A program made the translations under genes and the position numbers. From assembly GCA_913062735.1 (NCBI GenBank), contig CAJXWI010000004.1:1-20113 (forward strand): a stretch of DNA of 20,113 bases, written 5' to 3'. Each line of letters opens with the position of its first letter. The first letter of the stretch is position 1. The notes under the pieces were generated by a model. It saw only the letters and a program-made list of their open reading frames with translations, was not told the DNA's origin and made no database searches. Positions 1,049 to 18,706 of this stretch are shown here, in pieces. This DNA comes from an uncultured Arcobacter sp. (GTDB lineage: Bacteria > Campylobacterota > Campylobacteria > Campylobacterales > Arcobacteraceae).

Positions 1049-3082
1049 ATGTTTACAGAAAAAAATATTCCCAAACTTATATTCACTGTCCCTTTTATAG
1101 GGATTTTTATAGCTACACTACTCTTTACTTCTTTAATAATTGATAACGATTACGATGCATTAAAGAAAGAAACAAAAGAGATTAGAGAAAATTATATATT
1201 GAATGAAAAACAAATCCTTAAGGGTAAAATACAAGAAGTCTTGAGTTTCATCGAACATTCATCTTTTAAAAATGATCAAAATTTATTAAAAAAGAGTACT
1301 TTAAATTATATTGAAAATATAATTGCACAAGATAATGGCTACATCTATATTTTAAATGACAAGAGCACTATACTTTCACACCCTGTCTTAAAAAAAGGCT
1401 TTAATGCTTCCCAATTAAAGGATGTGAATGGACTAAGCATTGCAGATACATTAATAAAAGCGGGAAAGGAAAATCCTAAGGGCAGTTACATATCTTATTT
1501 TTGGACAAAACCAGGAGAAACCGTTCAAAAAGAAAAAACTGCCTATATTTATTATATAAAAGAGTGGAATTGGATAATTGCAATTGGTGGATACATGGAT
1601 GTTGTTGAACAACGTATACTTGATAAAACACAGCATAAAAATGATTTACTTCAAGAGAATATAAACTATACTCTTGCCGTATCCCTTGCGCTTACTCTAT
1701 GTGTTTTTCTATTCTCTTTTTTCTTTTCAAGATCGATTAATGGAATTTTTATAAATTATAAAAAAGAAGTAGAAATAAAAGAAGAAGAACTAAAAAGCCT
1801 AAACCTTGTTTTGCAAAACAGAGCAGATGATGAAGTTCTTAAAAGATATAAAAAAGAAGAAGAACTTGAAATTGCATACAAAGAGGTGATAACAGGACTT
1901 CCCAATAGAATGAAGCTGGTTCATACTTTAAAACAAAAAAATTCTCCTAAACTGGCCTTATTAAATATTGACAGATTTACGGATATAAATCATTGTTATT
2001 CAAGTGAAATAGCGGACAGACTTCTTTTTTTAATGGCACAATTACTTGTAAAATTATTTAAAGGCAAAAAAGAGATATTTATATTCAAATTACCAGTTGA
2101 TGAATTTGGAATATATACAAGCTCAAAAGAGATCTCAGATAAAGTGTTTTTGGACTTATGTGATTTAGCTATTGAAGAAATAGAAAAAGAGCCTTTTATT
2201 ATAGAAAAGAACAATATTATTGTTTCTATTACTTCAGGAGTTTCACTAACAAATGACAAAGTTTTAATTAATGCAAATACTGCACTTAAAATTGCAAAAA
2301 ACAAAAAACAAAGACTTTTTGTCTATAGAAAAGAAGATAATGTAGAAGTAAACTACCAAAATAATGTAAAATGGACACAAATATTAAAAGATGCCATTTC
2401 CAATAATAGAATACTTGTTTTTATACAGCCCATAATTAACAACAATAATCCCTTGGATGAAAAGTATGAATGTCTTATTCGTTTGAAGAATGAAAATGGT
2501 GAGATAATATCTCCTTTTCATTTCTTAGAACTCTCTAAGAAACTAAAGTTATACCACCAGTTAACAAGAATTGTAATAGAAAAATCTTTTGAGTATTTTA
2601 AAGACTCAAAAGCTGAGTTTTCTATAAATCTTACCCTTGATGACATTATGAATAAAGAGACTATTGCTTTTATTCATAAGAAACTGGAAAATCGCGATAT
2701 TGCAAAACGTGTGATTTTTGAAATTGTAGAGAGTGAAGGAATAGATAACTTTGAAGAGGTTTCTTTATTTATTAAAGAAATGAAAGCCGTGGGTTGTAAG
2801 ATTGCTATTGATGACTTTGGAACAGGATATTCTAATTTTGAATACCTGATGAAACTTAATGTTGATTTCATTAAAATTGATGGGTCTTTTATTAAAAATA
2901 TTGATATGTGTGAACAATCTTTACTTATCGCTGAACTTATTATTACGTTTGCAAAAAAACAAAATATAAAGACAGTAGCTGAGTTTGTTCATTCTAAAAG
3001 TGTCTTAGAAAAGGTAAAAGAATTAGGTATCACTTATTCTCAAGGTTTTTATTTAGGAGAACCTAAATCAATAGAGATTTAG
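1049..3082 (+). CDS. Cache-GGDEF(degenerate)-EAL c-di-GMP phosphodiesterase
   Basis: This 677-residue inner-membrane signalling protein is predicted to hydrolyse cyclic di-GMP in response to an extracytoplasmic ligand. A first membrane helix (about 9-31) is followed by a periplasmic Cache-type domain (about 35-200, with the typical FWTKPG...WNWIIAIGGYMD stretch), a second helix (about 207-229), a short helical linker, a GGDEF-like domain (about 280-428) and an EAL domain (about 440-675). The cyclase motif reads PVDEF (349-353) instead of GGDEF, so cyclase activity is very unlikely. The EAL domain keeps the ExLxR motif (E474-R478), N527, E558, D588-D589 in DDFGTGYS, K609, E645 and Q665, which is the usual catalytic set. 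The ATG has a weak GGA element 6 nt upstream. The gene appears monocistronic. The degenerate GGDEF domain may be a regulatory GTP-binding module, but this is inferred. Confidence 0.92.
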   Translation: MFTEKNIPKLIFTVPFIGIFIATLLFTSLIIDNDYDALKKETKEIRENYILNEKQILKGKIQEVLSFIEHSSFKNDQNLLKKSTLNYIENIIAQDNGYIYILNDKSTILSHPVLKKGFNASQLKDVNGLSIADTLIKAGKENPKGSYISYFWTKPGETVQKEKTAYIYYIKEWNWIIAIGGYMDVVEQRILDKTQHKNDLLQENINYTLAVSLALTLCVFLFSFFFSRSINGIFINYKKEVEIKEEELKSLNLVLQNRADDEVLKRYKKEEELEIAYKEVITGLPNRMKLVHTLKQKNSPKLALLNIDRFTDINHCYSSEIADRLLFLMAQLLVKLFKGKKEIFIFKLPVDEFGIYTSSKEISDKVFLDLCDLAIEEIEKEPFIIEKNNIIVSITSGVSLTNDKVLINANTALKIAKNKKQRLFVYRKEDNVEVNYQNNVKWTQILKDAISNNRILVFIQPIINNNNPLDEKYECLIRLKNENGEIISPFHFLELSKKLKLYHQLTRIVIEKSFEYFKDSKAEFSINLTLDDIMNKETIAFIHKKLENRDIAKRVIFEIVESEGIDNFEEVSLFIKEMKAVGCKIAIDDFGTGYSNFEYLMKLNVDFIKIDGSFIKNIDMCEQSLLIAELIITFAKKQNIKTVAEFVHSKSVLEKVKELGITYSQGFYLGEPKSIEI

Positions 3083-14657: not shown

Positions 14658-16346
14658 ATGAAAAAATATAATAGTATCAAGAAAACGTCGTTAAAGGTTA
14701 TAATTCCTTTTTCGGTAGTTCTTTTTTTTACTTTTCCTGGGCTTATTTATTATGTAAGTGGTAGTTTTAGTATAATTAAAAAAAATACAGCAGAGATACT
14801 TGTTGTGAAACAAAGAATGGAATCAATTTATATTGCTTACTCTAAACAAGCAAAAAATAGGAAAAATCTTTTTATAAGAGGTTTTAGAAAAAAAGATTTA
14901 GATAAATACTATAAAAAAATAGAAAAATCATCTAAAGAAATTTATATAGAAATGGATATTTTATTTAAAGACCCACTCTTTGCAAAATATACAAAATCTT
15001 TGCATAAAATTAAAAAAAGCCATATTTTTTTAATACAGAAATATTATGAATCCATTGATGTTTATGTTGATGATAATTTTGATTATTTGAATGCTGATAA
15101 ATTAACAAGAGGACGTGGAAAAGAAATTGGTCAACACATACTGGATATTATTAATTTAATTCAAAGTGATTTAACCCAAAAAACAGAAGATAAGTATTCT
15201 GATTTAACAAATAAACTTCTTTATTTATCCTTAATTATTCTTCTAGGCTACTCTATTGTAATGTACTATTTAATTAGAAGTATTTTAAACCCACTAACAA
15301 GAATCTCTAAATTATCATCCTATTTAACATACATAAACACGAATCATTTGGAAGATTATAAAGAATACAAAAAAGATAAAAATGATGAAATTGGAGACTT
15401 GATCACAACCTTTAACAAGTTTTTAAATACTATTGTTGATTATAATAAGAATCTTCAATCTAAGATTTTACAAAGAACGGAAGAGCTTGATTATGCCAAT
15501 GAACAATTACTAAGAATTAATAAAAACTTAACAGATGCAATGAATTATTCAAGTCTTTTACAAGATGCTATTAGACCAGCTAAATCACTTCTTCCTCTCT
15601 TGTATGAAGATGGTTTTATTACTTGGAAACCCAAAAGTAAAGTTGGTGGAGATATTTATTTCATGGATGTTTTAAGGAAGGATGAAAATAAGTCTCTTGT
15701 TATGTGCATTGATTGTACAGGACACAGTATTTCAGGTGCATTTGTAACAATGATTGTAAAATCAATTCAACATGAACTTATTAATAAATTGAATAATAAT
15801 GAAATGGAAATCTCCCCAGGAAAAATTCTAGGATACTTCAATAAAAGAATTAAAGATATTTTACAACAATACAGTAATACATCAAAATCAAATGCAGGAT
15901 TTGATGGAGGAATTTTATTTATTGATAAAAGAGCTGGTTTCTTAACGTATGCAGGTGCAATGATGAATCTAATTATGCTGGATGAGAAAAACTGCGTAAA
16001 ATTGATTAAATCAAATCGTTATTCTGTAGGTTACCAATCTTGTAAATATGACTATGAGTATGAAGAAACGTCAATTATTTTTGAAAAGGAGGTAAAGGTC
16101 TATTTAACTACAGATGGAGTTGTAGACACAATTAGCGAAAAAAAAGAATTGAGGTTTGGAAGAAAAAGGCTGATTGACATGATAACTGAACATCATCATA
16201 AAATATTTAAAGAACAAAAAAAAATATATATATCAATTCTTGAAAATTATAGAGGCAATTATGAAGTAGTGGATGATATCTGTTTTATAGGCTTAAAAAT
16301 TAAAAAAACCGTATTAAATGAAGCAGGAGAAGAAAATTATGAGTAA
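14658..16346 (+). CDS. siaA: SiaA-like HAMP-PP2C (SpoIIE-type) phosphatase
   Basis: This 562-residue membrane-bound serine/threonine phosphatase is predicted to dephosphorylate the SiaC domain encoded by the next gene. It has a first helix (about 13-34), a mostly helical periplasmic sensor (about 35-185), a second helix (about 187-206), a HAMP domain (about 207-262, with NPLTRISKLS), a coiled coil (about 265-300) and a SpoIIE/PP2C domain (about 310-548). The metal-binding aspartates are all present: D332 in KVGGD, D352 in CIDCTGHSISGAF, D416 in FDGG, D486 in TTDG and D539-D540 in VVDD. In Pseudomonas, SiaA has the same order and reverses SiaB phosphorylation of SiaC. AAGG (14646-14649) is 8 nt upstream of the ATG. 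The end overlaps the next gene by 8 bases (ATGAGTAA). Confidence 0.88.
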   Translation: MKKYNSIKKTSLKVIIPFSVVLFFTFPGLIYYVSGSFSIIKKNTAEILVVKQRMESIYIAYSKQAKNRKNLFIRGFRKKDLDKYYKKIEKSSKEIYIEMDILFKDPLFAKYTKSLHKIKKSHIFLIQKYYESIDVYVDDNFDYLNADKLTRGRGKEIGQHILDIINLIQSDLTQKTEDKYSDLTNKLLYLSLIILLGYSIVMYYLIRSILNPLTRISKLSSYLTYINTNHLEDYKEYKKDKNDEIGDLITTFNKFLNTIVDYNKNLQSKILQRTEELDYANEQLLRINKNLTDAMNYSSLLQDAIRPAKSLLPLLYEDGFITWKPKSKVGGDIYFMDVLRKDENKSLVMCIDCTGHSISGAFVTMIVKSIQHELINKLNNNEMEISPGKILGYFNKRIKDILQQYSNTSKSNAGFDGGILFIDKRAGFLTYAGAMMNLIMLDEKNCVKLIKSNRYSVGYQSCKYDYEYEETSIIFEKEVKVYLTTDGVVDTISEKKELRFGRKRLIDMITEHHHKIFKEQKKIYISILENYRGNYEVVDDICFIGLKIKKTVLNEAGEENYE

Positions 16347-17280
16347 TAAAAAAAATACTATTTTATTTATGGGATACAGTGGTTACTTTTCTCAAGCTAT
16401 AATTTTATCCTTAATAAAAGCATTAGAAGTTCAACTAAAAGATATTGTCGAAGGGCACACAATTGTACGAAGATTATATATAGTTTTTATAGAATTAGCT
16501 CAAAATGTAATGAAATATTCTAAAAGTGACTATGTTCATAATTACGATAGTGAACAGATCCTTATTGAGTATGATGAAAAAAACTATTATGTTACTACAA
16601 TAAATAATATTGATAATAAAACACTTTTAAAGATTGAAAATATATTTAAAAATATGGGCGAATTAAATAAAGAGGAAATTACAAAAAAATATAAGGAATT
16701 ACGTAAAAGTGGTGAAACTTCACATTCAAATGGTGGAGGAATCGGTTTGTACCAATTGGCTAGAAAGTCCGATAATATTTCTTATCAGATTAAAAAATTA
16801 GATGATAACTTATCAAGGCTTGAAATTACTGTACAAATAAATAAATATGGAGATAAAACAATGAAATACAAGACAATATTTATAGAAAAAACCTTGCATA
16901 CACCTGAAATAAATTTTGATTTTCAACGTGGAATTTTTAGTATTGAAGGCAAATCTTATTCTGAAAATACTTTTGAGTTTTATAAAGAACTGTTAATCAG
17001 TTTAGAAGCTTTTTTCAAAGATCAGTCTAATAAAAAATTGGAAAATATAATATTCAATTTCAAGTTAACGTATTTTAATTCAAGTAGTTCAAAAGCATTG
17101 TTTGAAATGTTTGATTTAATTGATATTTTTGTACAGAGTCAAAGCGATATAAGTGTAAATATTAATTGGGTGTATGATGAAGATGATGATAGTTCTAGAG
17201 AAGATGGTGAAGATTTTCAAGATAGTTTTGACTCTTTAAATATTCAATTACTTGTAAATAAAACTGAGCTAATAAGATAA
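16339..17280 (+). CDS. siaBC: SiaB kinase - SiaC regulatory phosphoprotein fusion
   Basis: This 313-residue protein joins two proteins that are normally separate. Residues 1-174 match the SiaB kinase family: FMGYSGYFSQ at the start, the N-box-like IELAQNVMKYS (E52, N56) and the ATP-lid-like SNGGGIGLYQLARKS (130-144). Residues 175-313 match SiaC (DUF1987): TLHTPEINFDF, then GKSYSENTFEFYKEL, then LTYFNSSSSKALFEMF, and WVYDEDDDSSREDGEDF. S248 occupies the place of the threonine phosphorylated in Pseudomonas SiaC (T68, in an NTSS context). The two halves have the lengths of the separate proteins. M175 (16861) is an in-frame ATG with GGAG 8 nt upstream, so free SiaC might also be made. ATG at 16339 has AGGAG 9 nt upstream and overlaps the siaA stop; an ATG at 16318 is less likely. 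Confidence 0.88.
   Translation: MSNKKNTILFMGYSGYFSQAIILSLIKALEVQLKDIVEGHTIVRRLYIVFIELAQNVMKYSKSDYVHNYDSEQILIEYDEKNYYVTTINNIDNKTLLKIENIFKNMGELNKEEITKKYKELRKSGETSHSNGGGIGLYQLARKSDNISYQIKKLDDNLSRLEITVQINKYGDKTMKYKTIFIEKTLHTPEINFDFQRGIFSIEGKSYSENTFEFYKELLISLEAFFKDQSNKKLENIIFNFKLTYFNSSSSKALFEMFDLIDIFVQSQSDISVNINWVYDEDDDSSREDGEDFQDSFDSLNIQLLVNKTELIR
16849..16863 (+). promoter_or_regulatory. Internal ribosome binding site and ATG for the SiaC half
   Basis: GGAG (16849-16852), an 8-base spacer and ATG (16861-16863) lie in frame at the exact domain border of the SiaB-SiaC fusion. This could drive separate synthesis of a 139-residue SiaC. Its use is inferred. Confidence 0.45.
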
Positions 17281-17285
17281 ATGTT

Positions 17286-18083
17286 ATGAATACAGTAGAA
17301 GATAACAAATATGTATTAGAAATAAAATCTTTACAAACAGATTTTATTTCAACAACTAATAAACTTATAAAAGACATCGAACGTCGTGAAAAAATTATGA
17401 CACGTAGTGATAAGCGGCAAAAACAAGATTATGACCAATTACAAGATAAACTTAAAGAAGTACAATCGTTAGGAAAAGAAATAGAAGAAACGCAAAGAGA
17501 AGTTATTTTCACCATGGGAGCAATAGGTGAGAGTCGTTCTAAAGAAACAGGAAATCATGTAAAAAGAGTTGCAGAATATTCAAAACTTTTGGCCTTATAT
17601 TATGGATTAAATAAAAAAGACGCAGAAATGCTTCAACAAGCAAGTCCTATGCATGATATAGGTAAGGTTGCTATTCCTGATTTGGTGTTAAATAAACCAG
17701 GATCTTTTACGCTTGATGAGCGAATAATAATGGATACGCATGTTAATATTGGTTATGAAATGCTAAAGCATTCAAGCAGACCCCTTCTTAAGTGTGCAGC
17801 AACTATTGCATATGAACATCATGAAAAATACAATGGAAAAGGGTATCCAAGAGCTTTAAGAGGTGAACAAATTCATATTTACGGAAGAATCACTGCATTA
17901 GCAGATGTATTTGATGCTTTAGGAAGTGATAGATGTTATAAAAAAGCTTGGAGCGATGATCGTATTTTTGCTTTATTTAAAAAAGAACGTGGGGAACATT
18001 TTGATCCAAAACTCGTAGATATATTTTTTGAACATCTTGATGAGTTTTTAGATATTAGAGAATCTTTAAGAGATCTTTTTTAA
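17286..18083 (+). CDS. HD-GYP domain c-di-GMP phosphodiesterase
   Basis: This 265-residue cytoplasmic protein is predicted to hydrolyse cyclic di-GMP. Residues 10-78 form a long, charged, probably coiled-coil helix (with IERREKIMTRSDKRQ at 31-45). The HD-GYP domain (about 80-265) carries H91, the HD pair H123-D124 in MHDIGK, H152, HHE (178-180) with GKGYP (184-188), and D207 in ADVFDAL. All metal-binding motifs look complete. It has no receiver domain and no membrane helix, so its input must come from a partner. It starts 5 bases after the SiaB-SiaC stop, in the place that the diguanylate cyclase SiaD occupies in Pseudomonas. The helical N-terminus could be the SiaC docking site, by analogy. 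No clear Shine-Dalgarno precedes the ATG, so coupling is likely. Confidence 0.92.
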   Translation: MNTVEDNKYVLEIKSLQTDFISTTNKLIKDIERREKIMTRSDKRQKQDYDQLQDKLKEVQSLGKEIEETQREVIFTMGAIGESRSKETGNHVKRVAEYSKLLALYYGLNKKDAEMLQQASPMHDIGKVAIPDLVLNKPGSFTLDERIIMDTHVNIGYEMLKHSSRPLLKCAATIAYEHHEKYNGKGYPRALRGEQIHIYGRITALADVFDALGSDRCYKKAWSDDRIFALFKKERGEHFDPKLVDIFFEHLDEFLDIRESLRDLF

Positions 18084-18142: not shown

Positions 18143-18706
18143 ATGAAAAAAGAATTTGATAGATTTAAAATATGGCTTAATGATAATTATAAAGAAGGAA
18201 TAGATGATTTAAATCCTCCTGCTAGTGATGAAGAAATAAAAGAATTAAAAGATACTCTTGGTCTTACTTTACCTAGTGATTTAATTTGTTTACTTAAAAT
18301 ACATAATGGGCAAAAAGGAAATTCTGCTTGGCTTTTTGATTCTCAAGAGTTTTTATCAACACATGGAATTATTAATGCATGGAATAACTGGAATACGTTC
18401 TTTCAAACAGATACCTTTCCCAAAAATAAGGCTAATTCAGATCTAGGAATTAAAGATGATTGGTGGAATAAAAAATGGATTCCTTTTTGCTCACCTGGAT
18501 CAGGGGATCATTATTGTATTGACTTAGATCCTACAAAGATGGGAAAAAGTGCTCAAATTATTACGCTTTGGCATGATTATGATGAAAGAGAATTAGTAAG
18601 TTTAAGTTTAAAAGACTGGTTCAATGACTATATTGAACAATTATTTAGCGGAGATTTTTTTTATTCGAAAGAATATAATTCAATTGTAAACAAAAATGAA
18701 ATATAA
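18143..18706 (+). CDS. SMI1/KNR4 (SUKH) family protein
   Basis: This 187-residue soluble protein has SUKH features: NPPASDEEIKELKDTLGLTLPSDLICLLKIHNG (24-56, given as a span), the WIPFCSPGSGDHYCIDLDP segment (about 114-132) and a WHDYDERELVS region before a C-terminal helix. SUKH proteins are often immunity proteins against polymorphic or contact-dependent toxins, while others have housekeeping roles. AAGGAG (18132-18137) is 5 nt upstream of the ATG. No toxin gene is visible on either side, so this is an orphan. It is separated from the HD-GYP gene by 59 bases that hold a possible promoter and is closed by a strong terminator, so it probably forms its own unit. Confidence 0.88.
   Translation: MKKEFDRFKIWLNDNYKEGIDDLNPPASDEEIKELKDTLGLTLPSDLICLLKIHNGQKGNSAWLFDSQEFLSTHGIINAWNNWNTFFQTDTFPKNKANSDLGIKDDWWNKKWIPFCSPGSGDHYCIDLDPTKMGKSAQIITLWHDYDERELVSLSLKDWFNDYIEQLFSGDFFYSKEYNSIVNKNEI

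Follow-up and report, generated by a model that had tools for sequence, protein, structure and literature searches.

In Pseudomonas aeruginosa, the SiaABCD system acts through SiaC, which activates the diguanylate cyclase SiaD (PDB code 7E6G; PMC8457831). According to the accessible part of that report, SiaC binds two motifs in the stalk of SiaD, and residue Thr68 of SiaC inserts beside residues Ser82 and Gln86 of SiaD, which hold it. A related locus was analyzed here in a stretch of 20,113 nucleotides (nt) from an uncultured Arcobacter sp. (contig CAJXWI010000004.1, positions 1–20,113), hereafter the window. At positions 14658–18083 of the forward strand, a PP2C phosphatase gene, a SiaB–SiaC fusion gene, and a stand-alone HD-GYP gene formed one tight operon. 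SiaC-binding residues of the SiaD type were found in a coiled-coil stalk before the HD-GYP domain, which is new, and their sequence suggests that one SiaC switch can be plugged into different outputs.

The locus resembles SiaABCD in having a PP2C phosphatase, a SiaB-type kinase, SiaC, and, next to them, a cyclic di-GMP (c-di-GMP) enzyme whose N-terminal helical stalk bears R..K[IV]...SDxxQ. It differs in that the effector is an HD-GYP protein and not a GGDEF protein such as SiaD, each stalk has one motif and not two, SiaB and SiaC are fused, and a serine stands in place of Thr68. In HsbA–HsbD and BgrV–BgrR, cited in the accessible part of PMC8457831, a STAS-like partner-switch protein likewise acts on a c-di-GMP enzyme, but the targets are cyclases and the partner is a STAS protein rather than SiaC. 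A modulating effect of DUF1987 proteins on adjacent proteins is also suggested there. Clusters of the same kind from the same phylum, Campylobacterota, were described in a 2022 mBio paper (PMC9239204). As far as its text was accessible, the co-occurrence of PP2C, 'stas_STYK', and STAS genes was taken there to indicate control of 'a c-di-GMP turnover enzyme', with the phosphatase and the kinase acting via the STAS protein, and the pathway was compared explicitly with SiaABCD; however, the accessible main text neither names an HD-GYP protein for the pathway nor describes a docking motif, a fusion, or a survey of effector classes. In the accessible open literature text, neither an action of SiaC on an HD-GYP protein nor a docking motif common to enzyme classes was found described.

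Stalk of the HD-GYP protein

The HD-GYP protein (positions 17286–18083, forward strand; 265 residues) is the predicted effector. Residues 1–75 (positions 17286–17510, forward strand) formed an N-terminal coiled-coil stalk, the predicted SiaC-docking region, in agreement with the stalk alignment and with a long helix in the AlphaFold2 (AF2) model of the L001 homologue. The predicted core docking motif, RREKIMTRSDKRQKQDYD (residues 33–50; positions 17382–17435, forward strand), aligned with Arg74–Asp91 of SiaD in the contact-residue map. The stalk shared the R..KI...SDxxQ residues that P. aeruginosa SiaD uses for SiaC binding. When aligned with the sequence of 7E6G, six of the 13 SiaD contact residues named in PMC8457831, Arg74, Lys77, Ser82, Asp83, Gln86, and Asp91, were identical in the stalk, and Val78 and Arg84 were conservatively replaced. 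Residues Ser41, Asp42, and Gln45 of the stalk were in register with the Ser82/Gln86-type motif of SiaD. Contact scoring alone discriminated poorly, many unrelated open reading frames (ORFs) reaching 8 of 13 similar residues, mostly with fewer identities.

Residues Arg33, Ile37, Arg40, Asp42, Arg44, Gln45, Asp50, and Leu52 were invariant among 18 HD-GYP stalks, and Ser41 was replaced by threonine in one row and by alanine in another. The strict motif was present in all 120 closest homologues listed (of 7814 matches), counted irrespective of SiaC linkage. The motif serine and the KETGNH-type pattern were found together in 148 distinct proteins, spaced by 45 residues in 144, 38 in three, and 66 in one. 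The differences of 7 and 21 residues are multiples of seven, as expected if the register of the coiled coil must be kept. In HD-GYP proteins of 450–481 residues, the catalytic domain part was about 32–40% identical to that of the window, and the stalks were 39–63% identical over the matched part. The stalk is thus conserved beyond the need of the enzyme.

A tree of catalytic domains (48 rows) was set aside as a test of single versus repeated gain of the stalk; 26 of its 45 inner branches were left open, and the stalk label required five changes. Rows L094 and L095, both from genomes without SiaC, had been called 'stalk' by a loose motif pattern.

Co-occurrence and linkage with SiaC

A phylum-wide search recovered SiaC in 8 of 150 genomes, one match lying below the cut-off, and surveys were then made at family level. 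In Arcobacteraceae, SiaC (PF09345) was found at 27 places in 22 of 104 genomes. The HD-GYP stalk was found at 23 places, all within 1 kb of SiaC, in 20 of the 22 SiaC-positive and none of the 82 SiaC-negative genomes. The cut for these stalk matches (E ≤ 2.4e-20) was chosen after the gap to the next match (3.2e-8) had been seen, and at least six of the weaker matches start ahead of model position 30, so that the motif region may be included in them. For the second family and the gammaproteobacterial sample, a stalk limit of 1e-10 was fixed beforehand. In the second family, 22 of 121 genomes were SiaC-positive, one of them by a match under the cut-off; 9 of these 22 had the stalk vs none of the 99 SiaC-negative genomes, and all 11 places were within about 1.5 kb of SiaC. 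Among 274 gammaproteobacterial genomes, SiaC was found in nine, and the stalk in two of the nine vs none of the other 265.

When the 499 genomes were pooled, the stalk was present in 31 of 53 genomes with SiaC and in none of 446 others (Fisher p 2e-35, uncorrected for relatedness). All but one of the 36 stalk matches lay within about 1.5 kb of siaC. The remaining HD-GYP gene, in G470, was located at a contig start next to SiaA and SiaB; a matching SiaA stretch of about 30 residues ends another contig, which carries SiaC, and the operon was apparently split by the assembly. Since the stalk carries a SiaD-like motif, is found only in genomes with SiaC, and lies nearly always beside siaC, the HD-GYP enzyme is very probably the target of SiaC. 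The first-pass annotation had proposed that the same switch controls c-di-GMP breakdown, and in this part, the HD-GYP protein as SiaC target, the proposal gained support.

Specificity of the motif

The specificity of the pattern R.......[STG]D..Q was examined in the first 160 residues of ORFs, those coding for HD-GYP proteins, kinases, or GGDEF proteins being counted as effector-type. Of the effector-type ORFs, 62 of the 89 that lie within 1.5 kb of SiaC carried the pattern, as did 2 of 26 elsewhere, namely L007, which lies 2.9 kb off in the same cluster, and L165, which is the G470 contig end. Non-effector ORFs carried it in 0 of 162 cases near SiaC and in 1 of 287 far from it (1 of 449 in total). 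The motif thus recurred in SiaC-linked histidine kinases and SiaD-type cyclases and hardly elsewhere. With an earlier, longer pattern, 63 of 222 ORFs near SiaC matched, as did 2 of 240 farther away and 9 of 9240 shuffled sequences; all motif-bearing ORFs listed were within 3 kb of a SiaC. A motif-bearing neighbor was found for 57 of 83 distinct SiaC proteins with the stricter pattern and the 3-kb limit; several of the other 26 had neighbors with variants, were cut by contig ends, or had none.

Profile comparisons of the HD-GYP and kinase stalks (E 2.3e-5, probability 76%) and of the kinase and SiaD-type stalks (E 1.6e-6, probability 90%) both placed the Ser-Asp pair in alignment, these E-values being single comparisons of helical sequences without a coiled-coil control.

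Several observations speak against the docking. The HD-GYP and SiaD-type stalk profiles matched weakly when compared directly (E 1.8e-3, probability 15%), and PDB searches with the HD-GYP stalk, by sequence and by profile, did not recover SiaD. Five of the 13 SiaD contacts, Arg80, Ile81, Tyr85, Met88, and Arg90, differed in the stalk, and residues Arg103, Leu107, and Asp114 of SiaC were not retained in the window. No HD-GYP stalk had a second motif, against two in SiaD (0 of 98 stalk-bearing ORFs, counted with repeats). SiaC-linked proteins were the source of the stalk profile, and diverged, unlinked stalks could escape it. One of the 36 stalk matches, the SiaC-adjacent HD-GYP protein L119 (G528), fitted no version of the motif, and L126 (G589) has glycine for the serine. 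When SiaC and the HD-GYP protein were modeled with AF2 as one chain, the predicted template modeling score (pTM) was 0.50, a chain-level value that is uninformative about docking.

Alternatively, the HD-GYP gene might be merely co-transcribed, with SiaC acting on another target and the stalk serving as an ordinary dimerizing coiled coil; L119 agrees with this, as does the intermixing of stalked and unstalked catalytic domains in the poorly resolved tree. However, the stalk was confined to SiaC genomes in the three surveys, its conserved columns include SiaD contact residues, and HD-GYP domains that lack the full stalk, at identities of up to 79% (L088–L097), sit in loci and genomes where SiaC was not found. 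Co-transcription alone is accordingly given little credence, the least of the explanations weighed here, and docking of the SiaABC switch on the HD-GYP stalk, with control of the phosphodiesterase, is regarded as the likely explanation.

Effector classes at SiaC sites

Genes up to 2.2 kb from SiaC were assigned to classes with BLAST and sequence patterns, the available DNA often spanning only 3.3 kb. The 27 Arcobacteraceae sites comprised 23 with an HD-GYP gene, one with a histidine kinase only, and three where no effector was seen. With the same classifier and the DNA available around SiaC, a GGDEF gene was found at none of the 27, although at one site the gene between SiaC and the HD-GYP gene gave a weak GGDEF match below the cut-off. 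An HD-GYP effector is thus the local norm. The arrangement that the first-pass annotation had named as refuting its proposal, in which the three genes are apart and a SiaD-type cyclase is the neighbor that is conserved, was not what the 104 Arcobacteraceae genomes presented. The first-pass annotation had also singled out the replacement of the effector as the most notable feature of this window; an HD-GYP effector is, however, not peculiar to it, and any swap may have run from GGDEF to HD-GYP or the reverse.

For the second family, 29 of 30 places were counted, one fragment being left out. Twelve sites had an HD-GYP gene, four of them together with a GGDEF ORF lacking the motif; three had a kinase, and one each had a motif-bearing HATPase protein, a GGDEF protein with the motif, and a GGDEF protein without it. 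No effector was seen at 11 sites, among them L146, which has a motif-bearing kinase at 2.9 kb. The 11 gammaproteobacterial sites comprised six with a GGDEF gene, one with an HD-GYP gene, one with an unclassified motif-bearing protein (L098), and three with no recognized effector. G470 is among the last three, its HD-GYP and SiaB genes apparently being on another contig.

Across these sites, SiaC fairly probably serves as a general plug-in regulator, with the R..K[IV]...SDxxQ coiled-coil motif in front of different output enzymes, namely GGDEF cyclases, HD-GYP enzymes of at least two lineages, histidine kinases, and further HATPase proteins. The neighboring stalked enzyme would then decide between c-di-GMP synthesis, c-di-GMP breakdown, and histidine phosphorylation, the outcome in Arcobacteraceae usually being breakdown. 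If this is true, a four-protein circuit described for one Pseudomonas cyclase would be a modular switch, the 13-residue stalk motif of the neighboring enzyme would allow its output to be predicted, and HD-GYP phosphodiesterases without a sensor domain of their own would have an input route.

Some loci held a second motif-bearing, SiaC-linked gene, such as L003 with an HD-GYP protein and a kinase, and L060 with a gene of 300 codons carrying RYEKILKISDKFE in addition to the HD-GYP gene. Such pairs would suit a role of SiaC in sequestering the HD-GYP enzyme or in scaffolding it, next to membrane-bound SiaA or to a second effector, at an unchanged catalytic rate. The studied relative SiaD, in contrast, works through enzyme activation (accessible part of PMC8457831), and scaffolding is judged improbable, only slightly less so than mere co-transcription.

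At four distinct sites (L002/L046, L004/L028, L012/L049, and L060/L083, each pair of identifiers denoting one site), the SiaC and HD-GYP genes were about 0.9 kb apart, with a gene coding for about 300 residues in the gap. The gap gene of L004 matched GGDEF weakly (18.5 bits; cut-off 23.8) and had the docking-motif variant YKRQEKMIKLSDN, and that of L060 had no GGDEF match and the variant given above. The product of such a gene is possibly a degenerate cyclase and a second SiaC partner. A SiaC-adjacent protein of 717 residues (L145:2497–4650; also L027) combined the docking motif with a HATPase domain and a CheX match below the cut-off, and is a possible further output class. No recognized effector accompanied the SiaA–SiaB–SiaC set of L138–L141 and L137 over about 4.5 kb in each direction, as far as the contigs reach, and the target may therefore lie elsewhere.

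HD-GYP domain and proposed mechanism

The HD-GYP protein matched HD_5 of Pfam (106.6 bits, 1.5e-30), and its signatures were intact: ETGNH (from residue 87), HDIGK (123), His152, HHEKYNGKGYP (178), and ADVFDAL (206). Residues 62–263 aligned with PDB code 4MCW (E 4.4e-58), a match that leaves out the docking part of the stalk. This entry is PmGH of Persephonella marina, an HD-GYP phosphodiesterase with a trinuclear metal center, and the identities of the metal ligands were taken from the PmGH literature. By this alignment and the motif positions, the HD, GYP, and metal-ligand residues were all present, and the protein is predicted to be a c-di-GMP phosphodiesterase. In the single-chain AF2 model, built for SiaC and the HD-GYP protein from L001 with a 69-row alignment, both expected folds were obtained with a predicted local distance difference test (pLDDT) score of 82. 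Foldseek with this model gave PmGH as the best match (E 3.6e-19, 48% identity), which confirms the two folds only. At L045 (1878–2676), the HD-GYP gene beside SiaC read as two overlapping frames of 155 and 119 residues, reflecting either a broken gene or a sequencing error.

Gene order, domains, intact catalytic motifs, the stalk motif, linkage, and co-occurrence are read from the sequences, and binding, dimerization, control of activity, its sign, and the substrate are inferred. In the proposed mechanism, the SiaA-like membrane phosphatase and the kinase of the SiaB part would set the phosphorylation of the SiaC serine. Unphosphorylated SiaC would dock, by the same face as in Pseudomonas, on the SDxxQ motif that a dimeric HD-GYP protein carries in its coiled-coil stalk and alter its phosphodiesterase activity, and phosphorylation of the docking serine would block this contact. 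With the kinase fused to its own substrate, SiaC may be phosphorylated by default. Docking is somewhat more likely to activate the enzyme than to inhibit it, through an ordering of the stalk dimer, and activation of the phosphatase would then lower c-di-GMP. If the HD-GYP enzyme works like SiaD, active SiaA would have an effect opposite to that in Pseudomonas.

The sign of control is less firm than the docking, activation being modestly favored by analogy. With activation, the output sign would be reversed, as the first-pass annotation had considered possible, and this reversal is held no more firmly than the activation itself. In the other branch of the same explanation, which is compatible with its docking part, SiaC would inhibit the phosphodiesterase, and active SiaA would still raise c-di-GMP, with the Pseudomonas sign conserved. 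The sequence leaves the sign unfixed, and the shared motif argues for binding rather than for activation. In SiaD, however, ordering of the stalk dimer by SiaC activates the enzyme (accessible part of PMC8457831), and the constant heptad register suits a conformation-transmitting stalk, though it fits either sign. Inhibition is thus considered doubtful, if clearly less so than scaffolding, and activation upon docking stays the preferred direction.

SiaA-like phosphatase and SiaB–SiaC fusion

The SiaA-like membrane phosphatase (positions 14658–16346, forward strand; 562 residues) had an N-terminal sensor region, a weak HAMP match, and a PP2C/SpoIIE domain (Pfam residues 343–548). The motifs VGGD, DCTGH, TDG, and DDI were intact at residues 329, 352, 485, and 539, as judged by eye against the active-site residues given in the accessible part of PMC7647112. 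The first-pass annotation had described three closely packed genes for a HAMP-PP2C phosphatase, a SiaB–SiaC protein, and an HD-GYP protein with intact motifs, and the ORFs and the Pfam and NCBIfam matches agreed with this. In the label HAMP-PP2C, the PP2C part was upheld by SpoIIE (57.8 bits, 1.8e-15; Pfam cut-off 25), whereas HAMP reached only 16.9 bits against a cut-off of 25. The phosphatase and fusion genes overlapped by 8 nt, and 5 nt separated the fusion from the HD-GYP gene. The equivalog cut-offs of NCBIfam were all missed, with 210 of 700 bits for SiaA (prot_phos_SiaA), 52.8 of 225 for SiaB, and 76 of 150 for SiaC.

The SiaB kinase domain fused to the SiaC phosphoprotein (positions 16339–17280, forward strand; 313 residues) matched DUF6272 (86.1 bits) and SiaC (PF09345; 120.7 bits) of Pfam, the SiaC part beginning near 16861, and also matched SiaB_fam_kinase (NF038262) with 103.2 bits, above the cut-off of 85. 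The kinase motifs IELAQN and GGGIGL were present in the SiaB part, and a sequence search of the PDB with the fusion recovered Pseudomonas SiaC and SiaB. The phosphoacceptor Thr68 of Pseudomonas SiaC aligned with a serine of YFNSSSS. By numbering counted from this position, residues Tyr65, Asn67, Ser69, and Asp79 were retained, and Glu110 was replaced by aspartate.

An upstream in-frame ATG at 16318 would extend the fusion to 320 residues. A possible internal start (positions 16849–16863, forward strand) consists of GGAG at 16849–16852 and an in-frame ATG at 16861–16863, from which free SiaC of 139 residues may also be made. SiaB and SiaC were also fused in the close relative L001. In another, L065, they were in different frames, split at the fusion junction, either naturally or through an error of the assembly. 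Among 5.8 billion proteins searched, 10 relatives of the fusion were listed, the first four of which (302–320 residues) covered 96–100% of it; P0008 (321 residues, 28% identity) and P0006 (210 residues) carried both SiaB and SiaC domain labels. Within the limited reach of this search the fusion was rare, and it is perhaps partly undone by the internal start.

A promoter scan was uninformative, with 26 promoter-like sites vs 26.4 expected by shuffling. A gene of the SUKH/SMI1-KNR4 family was located directly 3′ of the operon (positions 18143–18706) and at the same place in L001. Elsewhere in the window, positions 1049–3082 coded for a Cache-GGDEF-EAL protein, in which the GGDEF signature was apparently degenerate (VDEFG) and EAL read ECL.

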